From Melioribacteraceae bacterium (GTDB taxonomy: Bacteria; Bacteroidota; Ignavibacteria; Ignavibacteriales; Melioribacteraceae): DNA of 64,000 nt. The position numbers and the translations under genes were made by a program. Numbering within the stretch: position 1 is the first letter of the stretch; each line of letters begins with the position of its first letter. The notes beneath the pieces were generated by a model. It saw only the letters and a program-made list of their open reading frames with translations, was not told the DNA's origin and made no database searches. Below, in pieces: positions 48,146 to 55,815 of this stretch. The stretch lies in assembly GCA_030584085.1 (NCBI GenBank), contig CP129490.1:2327511-2391510 (forward strand). Reading direction: 5' to 3'.

Positions 48146-48412
48146 TTATTCCATAGAACGCAATTCACCTTTATTATATTTGTGTATAATGCTGGCAATT
48201 AATGTTTGATATGGAATACCTTCCTCTATTGCTTTTACTTGAATATCATTGTAATCTTTCGAAGTCAAACGAATGTTTATCCTTTTGTTTTTGGCCAAAC
48301 TCTCTTTTGCGGCTTGTTCAAACTTCTTTTTATCTTTTCTTTTTACCGATTTCCATTCACCTTTTTTATAGGATTCCATTAATTCTTTTTCTTCTTTATC
48401 TAAATATTTCAT
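48146..48412 (-). CDS. brnA: BrnA-like/CopG-family antitoxin
   Basis: The protein has 88 residues. A charged N-terminal helix (LMESYKKGEWKSVKRKDKKK) precedes a ribbon-helix-helix part: KNKRINIRLTSKDYNDIQVK then EGIPYQTLIASIIHKYNKG. This is the usual BrnA/CopG design: a DNA-binding, toxin-neutralising protein that represses its own operon. It overlaps brnT by 4 bp, in the toxin-first order typical of BrnTA. Confidence 0.85.
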   Translation of the reverse strand: MKYLDKEEKELMESYKKGEWKSVKRKDKKKFEQAAKESLAKNKRINIRLTSKDYNDIQVKAIEEGIPYQTLIASIIHKYNKGELRSME

Positions 48413-48693
48413 CTGTCTTCTCCTTCATTTAAATATTGTTTTGTTGCTTCTCTGCTCGGATAAATTGTTTTCATAAAATATTTTTTATCATCTTCAACAA
48501 ACGGAACAACATACGCATAATTTCCAACTTCTATAATGAACATTTTTTGATTTGGATACTTTTCTTTATCAGGGTGGTCTAAGATGTCCAAAATCTTTCC
48601 ATTAGAGATTGCTAATACGATTTCTTCAAAAGATATATTTCGTGTTTCTTTTAAAATATTATTCTTTTCTTCATTCCAATCGTAATATTTCAT
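48409..48693 (-). CDS. brnT: BrnT-like ribonuclease toxin
   Basis: The start is the ATG at 48693 (MKYYDWNEEKNNILKETRN), with AAGGGA upstream; a TTG one codon earlier is possible. The 94 residues match BrnT (RelE-like fold): DWNEEKN, ISFEEIVLAIS, then FIIEVGNYAYVVPFVEDDKK and the C-terminal TIYPSREATKQYL. It would be an mRNA-cleaving toxin. It lies about 120 bp from the distal end of the CRISPR array. Confidence 0.85.
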   Translation of the reverse strand: MKYYDWNEEKNNILKETRNISFEEIVLAISNGKILDILDHPDKEKYPNQKMFIIEVGNYAYVVPFVEDDKKYFMKTIYPSREATKQYLNEGEDR

Positions 48694-48812
48694 CAATCAT
48701 TTTTCCCTTGAATTAGCCGTGTGCCTTATCGGCGACAATAAATTATGAATTCATTTTAAATAAATCAAGAGATTCTTTTCATCCTTTTCTGCGGTATAAC
48801 TACTACTTGATC

Positions 48813-52697: not shown

Positions 52698-53726
52698 TTA
52701 CCTCAAATAAAATGGTGGATAGTCTTCTATATCGCCTCTAATATAACGTGCAAGTAGTTGGGCTTGTATGTGAGGCAATAATCCGATTGTCATTTTTTCA
52801 CCAAGAAACGGATGGGTTATTTCTTCCTGTTTTCTTTTTTGATAAGCAGTTAATAGTGCTTTTCTTGCATCATCAGACATTCTAACTTCGCCCGATTCTC
52901 TTATCTCGAAATCTTTTTTTGATACTTGTTTTAAGTTGATTAGATTCAACATAATTCTATCCCCCATATAGGCTCTGAATTCTTCCATTACATCAAGAGC
53001 GAGACTTGGTCTTCCTGATCTTAGTTGATGTAAAAATCCAACTTGAGGATCAAGACCGACTGTTTCTAAAGCTGATCGAACATCGTTAACTAAGATTGCA
53101 TATGTAAATGATAACAATGCATTTGCGGGATCGAGAGGCGGTCGTTTTGATCTTTGTGTAAAAGTAAAATCATCTTTTTGAGACGTTATTAAGTTTGAAA
53201 GTACGCTGAAATATATATTTGCACATTCCCCTTCATAACCTCTTAGCTCATCTAATGATCGGGTTTCTTCAATTTTCTTCAATCTTTTAGCCATCACATC
53301 AACTACTAATTCGATTTCTTCAGGAGATAAGTCGGGATGATTTCTTTGATGTCTCAAAAGTATATAGCGGTAATTTGAAACCTTTGCAGCAATAATTGGT
53401 CTTGCAAGTTTAAGCGAGAGAAATTCGTCATCGGATATTGCATACTGGGCTTTACGCAATAAAACATTTCCTTTTTGAGCACCGTAAACCCGAGCAAGAA
53501 ATTTCCCATTCATAGAAAGATAGCTTATACCAATATTGATTTCTGCACAGTACGCCATAAGCGCTGGCGTTAATGCTCTGAAACCGAAACAAACAATATT
53601 TTCGATCGAATGAGTTGGAGCCTGGAAAACTTTTTCGTCATTTATTTTTACAACAAATGTCTCTCGTTCTTTATGAACAAATGCATCTTCCGAGGTAATG
53701 TAAAGTGTGTTAAGATGTTTTTTCAT
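52698..53726 (-). CDS. cas1: CRISPR-associated integrase Cas1 (type I-C)
   Basis: The protein has 342 residues. The N-terminal beta domain (MKKHLNTLYITSEDAFVHKE) precedes the helical catalytic domain with metal ligands: Glu in YEGECANIYFSVL, His in LGLDPQVGFLHQLRSGRPSLALD (preceded by the segment LSFTYAILVND), and Asp/Glu in DVMEEFR. It inserts spacers with Cas2 and Cas4. It overlaps cas4 by 4 bp. Confidence 0.97.
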   Translation of the reverse strand: MKKHLNTLYITSEDAFVHKERETFVVKINDEKVFQAPTHSIENIVCFGFRALTPALMAYCAEINIGISYLSMNGKFLARVYGAQKGNVLLRKAQYAISDDEFLSLKLARPIIAAKVSNYRYILLRHQRNHPDLSPEEIELVVDVMAKRLKKIEETRSLDELRGYEGECANIYFSVLSNLITSQKDDFTFTQRSKRPPLDPANALLSFTYAILVNDVRSALETVGLDPQVGFLHQLRSGRPSLALDVMEEFRAYMGDRIMLNLINLKQVSKKDFEIRESGEVRMSDDARKALLTAYQKRKQEEITHPFLGEKMTIGLLPHIQAQLLARYIRGDIEDYPPFYLR

Positions 53727-54346
53727 AATGTATATAATCCTTTAATGTAATTTTTTAACTTACGGCTGTTCATCGCTTTTGGTTGACAAATTGGTTGCAA
53801 CGAACAATTTTTACATTTTGCAGCATACTCTGCTTTAGGAATTTTTTTACTTGTTACGATATCCCTCACAGAAATGATAATGTTTTCCGTTTGGGAGCGA
53901 AGTTCATCATTAATTTCAACAACATCCCGCCTTCTAATTTTTCCGTAAAAGAATGCTCCTTGTGTAATTATTGTATTAAGCATTTCTTCAAGACAAAGAA
54001 CTTGTGCACAGAGCTGTACCTTGTCGCTTAAATCATCTTTTGGTTTTCCGGATTTAAATTCCACCGGCAAAATAAATTTCCCTTTTTGATTTTCATGGAA
54101 TTCAACTACATCACAACGCCCAACAATTCCGTACTTAAATGAATGAATTCGTAATCCGCGAACAGTTTTAACATCGCCGCGTGTTTCGTATGTGTCGGTA
54201 TCAACTTTTTCATGAAGAATATTACCTCGGGTGGTAAATAGATTTTCCTGCCAAACATCATCTACATGTATTAGTCCGCATTGTCTAGGACAATAGACGT
54301 AATGTTGTAAGGCGCTTATCATTATGAATTGTTCTTCTGTGTACAT
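53723..54346 (-). CDS. cas4: CRISPR-associated exonuclease Cas4
   Basis: The protein has 207 residues. Iron-sulfur cysteines are in YVYCPRQCGLIHVDD and the C-terminal CKNCSLQPICQPK. The nuclease core has GRCDVVEF and LPVEFKSGKPK (PD-(D/E)xK). In type I-C systems Cas4 trims prespacers and sets PAM and orientation. Its start lies 8 bp from a palindromic repeat that separates it from the interference genes, so transcription from cas3 may be reduced here. Confidence 0.96.
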   Translation of the reverse strand: MYTEEQFIMISALQHYVYCPRQCGLIHVDDVWQENLFTTRGNILHEKVDTDTYETRGDVKTVRGLRIHSFKYGIVGRCDVVEFHENQKGKFILPVEFKSGKPKDDLSDKVQLCAQVLCLEEMLNTIITQGAFFYGKIRRRDVVEINDELRSQTENIIISVRDIVTSKKIPKAEYAAKCKNCSLQPICQPKAMNSRKLKNYIKGLYTL

Positions 54347-54354
54347 TTTCCTGA

Positions 54355-54411
54355 CTCATCCCCATACCCCTTCTCCCCGCAAGCGGGATCTTCGACTTCA
54401 AAGAGAAGGGG
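54355..54411. repeat. Palindromic repeat, left copy, with inserted hairpin
   Basis: The copy starts CTCATCCCCATACCCCTTCTC and closes with TTCAAAGAGAAGGGG, the same elements as the right copy at 54818. The loop is expanded by about 21 bp (54376-54396) that contain its own small hairpin CCCGC-AA-GCGGG. It separates the DUF559 stop from cas4. Confidence 0.8.
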
Positions 54412-54415
54412 AGTA

Positions 54416-54802
54416 TTATTTTTGATATTCTCTTTTGATCTCATTTAATACTTTACTTAAATCAGTTTCGATTTCTTTATTTGTGAACCTAATAACTGTT
54501 ACTCCGAGATTTTTAATATCTTCCGTTCTTAGCATGTCGAACTCTTTCTGCTTTATGTGGTAACCGCCGTCAATTTCAATAACTAACTTTAATTCATGAC
54601 AATAAAAATCAGCTATATAAAATGATTCCTTTCCTCCCAAATTATAGAATAACGGAAATTGCCTATTGAACTTTTTACCCATAAATTTTCTGTTGCGTAC
54701 AGCTTCCCAGAAAATTATTTCTGCTTTTGTAGAGTTTTTTCTTAACTCTCTACAAAGCTTTATTGCAACTGGATTTAAATTAGATTTTGAGTTCAGACTC
54801 AT
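54416..54802 (-). CDS. DUF559 (Vsr-like) endonuclease-domain protein inside the cas operon
   Basis: The protein has 128 residues. DUF559 motifs are clear: ELRKNSTKAEIIFWEAVRNR, KKFNRQFPLF, then FYIADFYCHELKLVIEIDGG, which supplies the D...ExD core of the Vsr/restriction-endonuclease fold. The end is TEDIKNLGVTVIRFTNKEI. I start at the ATG (MSLNSKSNLNP); a TTG at 54817 would add five residues and touch the repeat. It lies between cas7 and cas4, where I-C operons normally have no gene, and is flanked by related palindromic repeats. It is probably a small mobile unit rather than a Cas protein. Confidence 0.88.
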   Translation of the reverse strand: MSLNSKSNLNPVAIKLCRELRKNSTKAEIIFWEAVRNRKFMGKKFNRQFPLFYNLGGKESFYIADFYCHELKLVIEIDGGYHIKQKEFDMLRTEDIKNLGVTVIRFTNKEIETDLSKVLNEIKREYQK

Positions 54803-54817
54803 TAAATACTTCTTCAA

Positions 54818-54895
54818 CTCATCCCCAACCCCTTCTCTTCAAAGAGAAGGGGCTTTTAAAAGTCCCTCTCTCTGGAGAGAGGGACTTAGGGTGAG
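54818..54895. repeat. Composite palindromic repeat, right copy
   Basis: Two hairpins are joined by CTTTTAAAAG: CCCCTTCTC-TTCAAA-GAGAAGGGG, then GTCCCTCTC-TCTG-GAGAGAGGGAC. The outer ends CTCATCCCCAA and TTAGGGTGAG are nearly complementary, so the whole 78 bp can fold on itself, like paired REP elements. The first hairpin matches the left copy. Confidence 0.85.
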
Positions 54896-54963
54896 TGGGC
54901 TTTAAAGGATGATAAAAATTAATTTCCTTATCTCTCAGTCAATTGCAATAACATATTTATTAT

Positions 54964-55815
54964 TTACTTAACCTCAACAACCTTAAATATCTCTGTGAAT
55001 TTTTCACCGTCAAGAAGTATTTCGTAATCGGAGTAATCTCTAGCGGGTCCATCTGTTAATTTTTTATGAGTTACACGGTCAAACAATTCGTGAGCAAGTT
55101 GGTTGCCCAATGCTGTTTGATGTTTGAATACAATCAACTTTCTTGTATTCATCATTCCACGTGCTGCTGAATGGTCGTGTTCGAACATATTTTGCATTGC
55201 TTCCCAGAATAAACTCAAATCTTCTTCATTGAAACCCGTTTGGTTTGCTAAGTGTGCAGATATAAAGCCGTGGGCTCTGTATAATCCATAAGGTACAGTA
55301 TATTTTCTTCCCATTTCTGAGCCGCCGGTTTCTGATCTTGCTTCTGTAGTTTTCGCTACTCGTGTAATGCTATGTTCAAGTGCAACTATTGGATCAGTTG
55401 AACGCGCAAAGGTTATTTGAATTGGTCCACGAACTTGGCCGGCATTTTTACCTGTAGACATAACCGCACCAAAAGTTCTAACATCATAATAATTTTTGCA
55501 CATCCACATTCTAGCTGATTCAGTTTTGTCTTTATCTTTTTCCTTTTTACTTACCTCGTCATCTTCGTGTGCCTCATCGATTAAATTATTAAGTACAGCC
55601 CTTTCTTTTATAAAGATATTATAAGGTGTTTTTTCTTCTTTGGTCAACTGTACGTAGTTCCGCACTTTTCTTTTAATACAAACATCTGTTACTAAACCGT
55701 TCGCTGTTTCTGCATCAATCCTTGGTAAGTTACCCGCATCGGGATCACCATTTGGATTACCGTCTTTTACATCAAAATAAAAAACAAAGTCATAACGATT
55801 TTTAATTGTTTCCAT
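54964..55815 (-). CDS. cas7: Type I-C Cascade backbone protein Cas7 (Csd2)
   Basis: The protein has 283 residues, the family's usual size. It opens with a ferredoxin-like strand ([20 protein letters not shown]). Family motifs [20 protein letters not shown] and [14 protein letters not shown] follow. Several copies coat the crRNA. It starts 19 bp after cas8; what follows downstream is the inserted DUF559 unit, not cas4. Confidence 0.96.

Follow-up and report, generated by a model that had tools for sequence, protein, structure and literature searches.

A gene for a DUF559-family protein lies inside the type I-C CRISPR-cas operon of a Melioribacteraceae bacterium, in the window analyzed here (a stretch of 64,000 nucleotides of contig CP129490.1, assembly GCA_030584085.1), and its position raises the question of whether it serves that operon or belongs to a mobile unit that settled there. 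The operon reads cas3-cas5-cas8c-cas7-DUF559-cas4-cas1-cas2 on the minus strand, and adjoins a CRISPR array of at least 49 repeats. The feature is, in our judgment, probably a copy of a widespread autonomous mobile element that consists of a DUF559 gene of the Vsr/EDxHD fold and its cognate REP-like palindromes. The location of the gene between cas7 and cas4, noticed in a first-pass annotation, was confirmed by gene calls and Pfam, and the boundaries given there for the whole unit (54355-54895) were also right, since the ACTCA...TGAGT ends fit them (Table 1). The same annotation described the gene as bracketed by two similar repeats in the same orientation; the common strings that it named are indeed present, but the two copies are unequal, one being an inverted pair and the other a single hairpin. 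Both have the stem CCCCTTCTC/GAGAAGGGG and the tag ACTCA/TGAGT in common, and an arrangement resembling the upstream double palindrome was also found in relatives and beside a second DUF559 gene of the same genome (L001; hereafter, L numbers denote loci and G numbers the genomes of relatives, G000 being the genome of the window). Because the 24-bp core palindrome has no other occurrence in this 3.74-Mb genome at up to three mismatches, the window palindrome is not a product of chance.

Table 1. The DUF559 unit of the window, its palindromes and the adjoining cas genes.
Feature	Position in window	Strand	Remarks
DUF559 nuclease gene	54416..54817	-	133 aa from TTG; PF04480, 102.6 bits
cas7, host operon, transcription-wise upstream neighbor of DUF559	54964..55815	-	PF05107
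cas4, host operon, transcription-wise downstream neighbor of DUF559	53723..54346	-	PF01930
Upstream REPIN-like double palindrome, ACTCATCCCC-hairpin-spacer-hairpin-GGGTGAGT	54817..54896		ends ACTCA...TGAGT, 80 bp
Hairpin A, CCCCTTCTCTTCAAAGAGAAGGGG	54829..54852		24-bp core; part of upstream double palindrome
Hairpin B, AAGTCCCTCTCTC-TG-GAGAGAGGGACTT	54860..54887		inverted repeat, 100% complementary
Downstream single REP palindrome, tag ACTCATCCCC, beside cas4 start	54354..54411		arms CCCCTTCTC/GAGAAGGGG
Nested micro-palindrome CCCGCAAGCGGG within downstream REP loop	54376..54387		similar nested piece in L297

Nested micro-palindromes (e.g., CCCGCAAGCGGGATCTTCGAC or CCTGTCCCGA..TCGGGA) were seen in the loops of several REP hairpins, namely those of the window (54376-54399), of a palindrome-only cas1-cas2 gap (L297), and of the palindromes of L076, L080 and L096; it looks as if a still smaller element were inserting into REP hairpins. 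Elsewhere in the window, near the CRISPR array, two small adjoining ORFs occupy 48146-48696 of the minus strand, and this pair resembles a toxin-antitoxin module of the BrnT/BrnA type.

The sole Pfam domain of the window protein is DUF559 (PF04480); the HUH Y1 transposase domain (PF01797) is absent. An in-frame ATG at 54802 gives a protein that begins MSLNSK..., resembling the start of several relatives, and this ATG, rather than the TTG, is likely the actual start codon. In an alignment of 36 sequences from several phyla, residues E33, D70, E81, D83, H87 and D94 were invariant, because of which the window protein is likely an active nuclease; the invariant E, D, H and D residues presumably constitute the EDxHD motif. 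An AlphaFold model of the protein (pLDDT 84, pTM 0.79) found its best match among solved structures in NGO0050 (3hrl) with an E-value of 1e-6, the sole match below 0.001, followed by weaker matches that included AbaSI and, in third place, the catalytic domain of I-Bth0305I (3r3p; E 0.02, probability 1.00). A known anti-phage defense protein was considered and rejected, since a PADLOC scan of five proteins gave partial, weak matches only.

The genome of the window is assembled as a single contig and contains five DUF559-family matches at four places. Two of these, the window itself and L001, where a gene of the window's DUF559 clade lies between a methylase and a ResIII gene, are intact stand-alone copies with ACTCA-tagged palindromes and CCCCTTCTC stems on both sides. 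The third is frameshifted (L003/L004, G000:C1:3558407-3558729) and has CCCCTCCTT palindromes with CCACCCC ends, again on both sides; the fourth, L005, is Vsr-like, and no such palindromes were seen in the stretch read around it. When the genome was searched with two strict REP patterns, three matches were obtained, each beside one of the three stand-alone DUF559 genes, and no solitary REP was found by these patterns.

Among 116 order-level genomes, DUF559-family matches were found in 77, often several per genome, a few of them weak and Vsr-like; the genomes of the relatives are mostly drafts, and the loci fetched from them represent the higher-scoring part of the matches. Of 53 entries for stand-alone DUF559 genes with full flanks, 52 had a pyrimidine-arm palindrome within 250 bp; it lay upstream of the gene in 44 and downstream in 40, and 32 had palindromes on both flanks. 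The 53 entries correspond to 52 distinct loci, L035 being inside L072, with 31 two-sided cases among the distinct ones; the set omits the window copy (L002), the frameshifted L003/L004 and the Vsr-like L005, and two loci with short flanks are uncounted. As controls, 282 ORFs were taken from 15 of these genomes, in 20 randomly placed stretches of 20 kb; a single ORF had such a palindrome upstream, and none had it downstream or on both sides (p=6e-31 for both sides). An absence of association between the palindromes and DUF559, raised at first pass as a point to check, is thus contradicted by the ratio of 52 in 53 against 1 in 282. A common form of the element is a palindrome pair (REPIN), then DUF559, then a palindrome or palindrome pair.

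The same linkage was observed in other phyla. The genome_contigs set comprised the best 80 of 548 loci, from Bacteroidota, Cyanobacteria, Cloacimonadota, Spirochaetes, Omnitrophota, Patescibacteria and others, including four titled Ignavibacteriales or Melioribacter, of which three were scored; 10 of the 80 were unscored. The 70 scored stand-alone loci had palindromes on both sides in 26 cases and on at least one side in 56, and the 67 that lie outside the Ignavibacteriales accounted for 23 and 53 of these, respectively. For the other ORFs of the same loci (n=125), the counts were only 1 and 8 (p=1.5e-12 for the 70). Phage cargo was rejected as an identity for the unit, as a scan of viral_contigs gave 2 relatives. 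It is to be noted that cyanobacterial copies from Planktothrix, Calothrix, Nostoc and strain CCP2 (L179, L186, L224, L228) have like polypyrimidine palindromes, with a tag near CCCTCACCCC in L186, L224 and L228.

A direct repeat spanning the DUF559 gene was detected in 57 of 142 loci (two of which were entered twice, as L105/L157 and L158/L333), with a length of 27-382 bp, 38 of them being at least 60 bp; in the other 85, none was detected across the gene at E 1e-6. A detected palindrome was contained in 37 of the 57 repeats, and two or more in 11. Such spanning repeats were found for 4 of 266 control ORFs and for 9 of 23 RAYT genes. A search within genomes for nearly identical units at different loci, which would indicate recent moves, found none: the copies compared were 67-78% alike over at least 150 bp when the tandem duplication in G104 is excluded. 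No consistent short target duplication was seen. Several individual loci are also worth recording. In L167 (Chitinophagaceae), L198 and L192 (both Bacteroidales) and L187 (Salinivirgaceae), blocks of two palindromes that have private spacers in common flank the gene, and these blocks are direct repeats of 160-266 bp with 86-95% identity. In L092 (G110), the 144-bp 3' end of the upstream host gene (1263-1406) is repeated with 88% identity at 1895-2038, past the far palindrome, and the whole unit thus sits within a long duplication of host DNA. In L035/L072 (G104), two DUF559 units lie in tandem (833 bp, 94% identity).

If nuclease and palindrome belong together, the type of one should follow that of the other. 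The order of 55 copies in the protein tree largely sorted the palindromes by tag and stem, the groups being ACCCACCCC/CCCCTCC, ACACACCCC/CCCCTCTC, ACTCATCCCC/CCCCTTCTC (the window's clade), GACCACCCC/CCCCTCCT, and ACCTCACCC/CCCTCTCC; the terminal tags overall are ACTCA, ACCCA, ACACA, GACCA, ACCTCA and similar. Protein identity and palindrome similarity between genomes were correlated (Mantel r=0.456, p=0.0005) over the 53 of these 55 loci that had a palindrome to compare. When palindromes were shuffled within the same genome only (28 loci, 12 genomes), the observed value of 0.205 still exceeded the shuffled mean of 0.153 (p=0.0002). In 19 of the 28 loci, the palindromes resembled those of the closest nuclease from a different genome more than those of the own-genome mate, whereas the remaining nine spoke against the rule, their palindromes being more like the mate's. 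As judged from these comparisons, nuclease clade is a predictor of palindrome type, on average even among copies that reside in one genome.

The two strict REP patterns gave 594 matches in the 116 genomes, ranging from 0 to 54 per genome (the 54 being in G066), and the reversed-pattern control gave zero matches in all 116. Dispersed solitary REPs were seen in relatives but not in the window's own genome; such solitary palindromes would be the non-autonomous form of the element. With DUF559 presence defined by a best E-value below 1e-8 (the unlisted DUF559 places of G069, G082 and G083 being unused), REPs were found in 59 of 69 genomes that have DUF559, compared to 14 of 47 that do not (p=1e-9). 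Because those 14 genomes possess REPs, in up to 23 copies, with no DUF559 found, a strict dependence of REPs on DUF559 is disfavored; the repeats may outlive the gene or be maintained by something else. The REPs of six single-contig genomes number 34; of these, 12 were within 1 kb of a listed DUF559 gene, where 0.05 were expected, and 22 were elsewhere.

The gap that the unit occupies in the window was then compared across cas operons. Only two of nine I-C cas7-cas4 junctions, the window included, held DUF559 and palindromes (the own genome and G004), so that DUF559 is not constant at this position and the idea of a mobile unit, for which such constancy had been named as a test, stands. In G033, and in G069, where the stretch ended short of cas4, the junction contained a RAYT gene accompanied by other repeats; G107, G086, G001 and G073 had genes of Bro-N or RhuM type there (labeled by Pfam for L037, L041 and L043, the remaining Bro-N by likeness), and G089 had repeats only; none of the nine was plainly empty, and an exact empty site for the window unit was not found among them. 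The cas4 of G001, a member of the same genus, is 85% identical to that of the window and has no DUF559 next to it, whereas in G004, of another genus, cas4 is 72% identical and DUF559 is present. Among 21 type II cas1-cas2 junctions, six held DUF559 with palindromes, one held palindromes only (in G032, whose genus mate G046 holds the full unit), three held RAYT-like genes with AACCGTTTTAACGGTT-type repeats (one confirmed by a Y1 transposase search and two by motif only), one held such repeats with no recognized gene, and ten were short (2-205 bp) and without palindromes. By the contents of these junctions, the gaps used by DUF559 units are also used by RAYT units, the two kinds having different repeats of their own. 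The cas7-cas4 (L036-L043, L057) and cas1-cas2 (L288-L308) gaps appear as insertion hot spots for DUF559-REP, RAYT, Bro-N and RhuM-type genes alike.

Copies were also found in frame within host genes. Among the DUF559 loci fetched first, 16 lie in long ORFs (376-1466 aa), and these comprised, by host motifs, nine metH and five hsdR genes; the palindromes are translated on one or both sides of the nuclease, and one lies within 250 bp downstream in 14 of the 16. A helicase fusion was rejected for these ORFs, as they proved to be host genes with in-frame inserts. In a MetH example examined by Pfam, DUF559 is placed between the cap (B12-binding_2) and B12-binding domains, and in an HsdR example between HSDR_N and the SNF2 helicase. 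One example each was seen by Pfam of inserts in TatD (Patescibacteria) and HsdM (Omnitrophota), and of DUF559 at the start of an M50-protease ORF and of a HisF ORF; it is also contained in cyanobacterial DUF1156 and Eco57I-type proteins and, in the relative G043, in a type ISP protein. The examples scanned were without an intein domain, the reading frame is continuous through the insert in metH and hsdR, and no Rfam family matched the window stretch or eight loci; an intron or intein host was therefore rejected.

The metH site was found in several states. Of 50 linkers read, 38 were empty with a constant length of 36-38 aa, eight held palindrome-DUF559-palindrome, and four were palindrome-only or remnant (clear in G110, partial in G069 and G037, weak in G104); because the linkers were selected, as the 30 best matches to an occupied gene and 20 more picked mainly for longer ORFs, these shares are not frequencies. 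Full and empty species occur together in six genera, counting G089 and G097 as full. The MetH tree follows taxonomy with the occupied states scattered over it, and the metH DUF559s form one clade (10/10, support 0.998), as do those of hsdR (5/5, support 0.907). The identity of DUF559 was unrelated to that of MetH (r=0.05, 36 pairs); this departure of the DUF559 tree from MetH would favor horizontal spread, the alternative being an old presence with many losses. The flanks of full metH sites were no more alike than others (G104 taken as empty) and thus gave no sign of co-conversion, which old events would have lost. The metH and hsdR DUF559s behave like site-specific homing lineages.

Comparison among genomes demonstrates the linkage of nuclease and palindromes, their co-specificity, and sites that are empty, palindrome-only or full, both between genes and in frame. 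The palindrome linkage, the clade matching and the several site states together support the idea, put forward at first pass, that the unit is mobile. The accompanying suggestion that the nuclease mobilizes its own REP-like DNA in the manner of RAYT/REP pairs gained strength as an analogy, through covariation and the empty, palindrome-only and full states, but that DUF559 cuts the palindromes and does the mobilizing is something that we only infer. In the mechanism that we propose, DUF559 would recognize its cognate palindrome or tag, either as a double strand or as an extruded single-strand hairpin, and would cut or nick there; the element would be copied into the break by repair, at times duplicating the palindrome unit on both sides, and solitary palindromes would spread in trans. 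The window unit would have entered the gap from cas7 to cas4 in the orientation of the operon, and it may do little harm there.

Three other explanations compete over the palindromes and the genomic position. That the palindromes are ordinary terminators or RNA-stability hairpins, flanking a small cargo gene by chance, would agree with hairpins that are strong and mostly intergenic; nonetheless, palindromes also lie inside the reading frames of metH, hsdR and others, control genes lack them, the terminal tags follow the nuclease clade, and the Rfam search was negative as described, all of which makes this reading exceedingly improbable. Movement of the palindromes by RAYT transposases, with DUF559 as a passenger, draws on the abundance of Y1 transposase genes, which were found in 53 of 58 relatives searched and number five in the own genome, and on G024 and G086, which have Y1 matches and REPs (15 and 5, respectively) with no DUF559 found. 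Yet a pyrimidine-arm palindrome was near only 2 of 30 RAYT loci and never on both sides (the RAYT counts being from 30 of the Y1 matches for palindromes and 23 for direct repeats), and RAYTs at the same cas gaps have other repeats; moreover, G007 (81% complete) and G008 have DUF559 and REPs but no Y1 match, while G010 has three Y1 matches but neither DUF559 nor such a REP. We therefore regard it as very unlikely. The remaining explanation, offered as the alternative at first pass, is that CRISPR-Cas took up DUF559 as a functional accessory nuclease, e.g., in spacer acquisition, and retained it for that reason. In favor of it, the window's clade lies between two cas genes in 6 of 10 loci, compared to 0 of 45 for other clades (p=7e-6, in a post hoc test for which the limits of the clade were set by eye on the order of the tree): twice at I-C cas7-cas4, three times at type II cas1-cas2 and once at cas6-cas1, co-oriented with cas in all six. 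We read this excess as a site preference, the alternative being a link to CRISPR. A fixed CRISPR accessory was rejected, since only 2 of 9 I-C and 6 of 21 type II junctions are occupied; this occupancy is patchy, and the gene takes different positions in different systems. RAYT, Bro-N and RhuM genes occur in these gaps as well, the window's clade is also found at L001 and beside genes that are repair-type by likeness, and palindromes of the same class occur at non-cas sites. Recruitment is thus unsupported as a general role and, on the whole, unlikely, and we take the window unit to be a passenger in the I-C operon that has no working role in its machinery.

Homing into REPs that were already in place is the strongest rival. 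In this view, the palindromes are older, independent repeats that serve as cut sites, and DUF559, as a free-standing homing gene, inserts copies of itself into these repeats and does not spread them. The fold of DUF559 matches an EDxHD homing endonuclease, and one publication places a DUF559 gene in that family (PMC9403480). The metH and hsdR inserts, each a single clade at one fixed site and, for metH, with a DUF559 identity independent of that of the host protein, are also what homing would produce, as are the palindrome-only sites. On the other hand, REPs follow the presence of DUF559 by genome and by clade, and insertion into a REP should split it, yet at least 11 loci repeat two or more palindromes as a block on both sides. 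We consider homing alone a possible but doubtful account, and homing and REP spreading may both operate, in different lineages.

With mobility of nuclease and palindromes together as the preferred reading, the unit works like RAYT/REPINs and like homing endonuclease genes, and fails one defining feature of each. As in the RAYT/REP systems (REPtrons, REPINs), a small nuclease gene lies between palindromic repeats, the hairpins are paired with terminal tags, repeats match the clade of the enzyme, and solitary non-autonomous copies occur; here, the same cas gaps are used as well. The enzyme, however, is DUF559 and not an HUH Y1 transposase, its tags are ACTCA, ACCCA and the like rather than the GTAG or CGTC given for RAYT REPs in PMC3733652, and copies are also in frame inside genes. 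The EDxHD homing endonucleases, exemplified by I-Bth0305I, resemble it in fold and in the invariant E, D, H and D, and in having lineages that keep to one site and have unoccupied alleles (seen for metH, and for hsdR from the clade only); they differ in that no intron or intein was found around DUF559, which carries its own palindromes and has many copies at unrelated sites instead of being tied to one. Free-standing homing genes do exist, and absence of an intron or intein alone leaves membership in the wider class possible. Rickettsia palindromic elements are likewise palindromic DNA in frame within protein genes, and they are not known to carry a nuclease gene; here, in contrast, palindrome-only and nuclease-bearing forms occur at the same site. 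The Vsr mismatch endonuclease and VsrA of Caulobacter have a related domain, that of VsrA bearing a DUF559 annotation (PMC12907096), whereas the Vsr-like L005 of the own genome was without such palindromes in the stretch read. Our literature searches, which mostly did not extend to subscription journals, found no report linking DUF559 to palindromic repeats. DUF559-REP may even constitute a separate class of mobile DNA, its enzyme and mechanism unrelated to those of RAYT/REPINs, in which a PD-(D/E)XK-like nuclease would recognize its own palindrome, extruded or double-stranded, and spread both its gene and solitary palindromes, with in-frame site-specific lineages in metH and hsdR; this would explain many otherwise unexplained polypyrimidine palindromes in bacterial genomes, and we give it slightly less than an even chance of being correct.

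DUF559 is a widespread family of unknown function, and linking it to cognate palindromes gives it a testable role and points to a likely driver of a set of REP-like repeats not carried by the RAYTs of this study. A small nuclease combined with palindromes suggests a second origin of this solution, with an enzyme unrelated to the HUH transposases. In metH and hsdR, the in-frame copies naturally document how conserved genes gain such units, lose them and retain scars. For annotation, a DUF559 gene beside cas or restriction-modification genes, or inside a host protein, need not belong to that system. What emerges has the appearance of a family of selfish DNA that has so far been overlooked and that, in many bacteria, pairs a nuclease with REP-like repeats.
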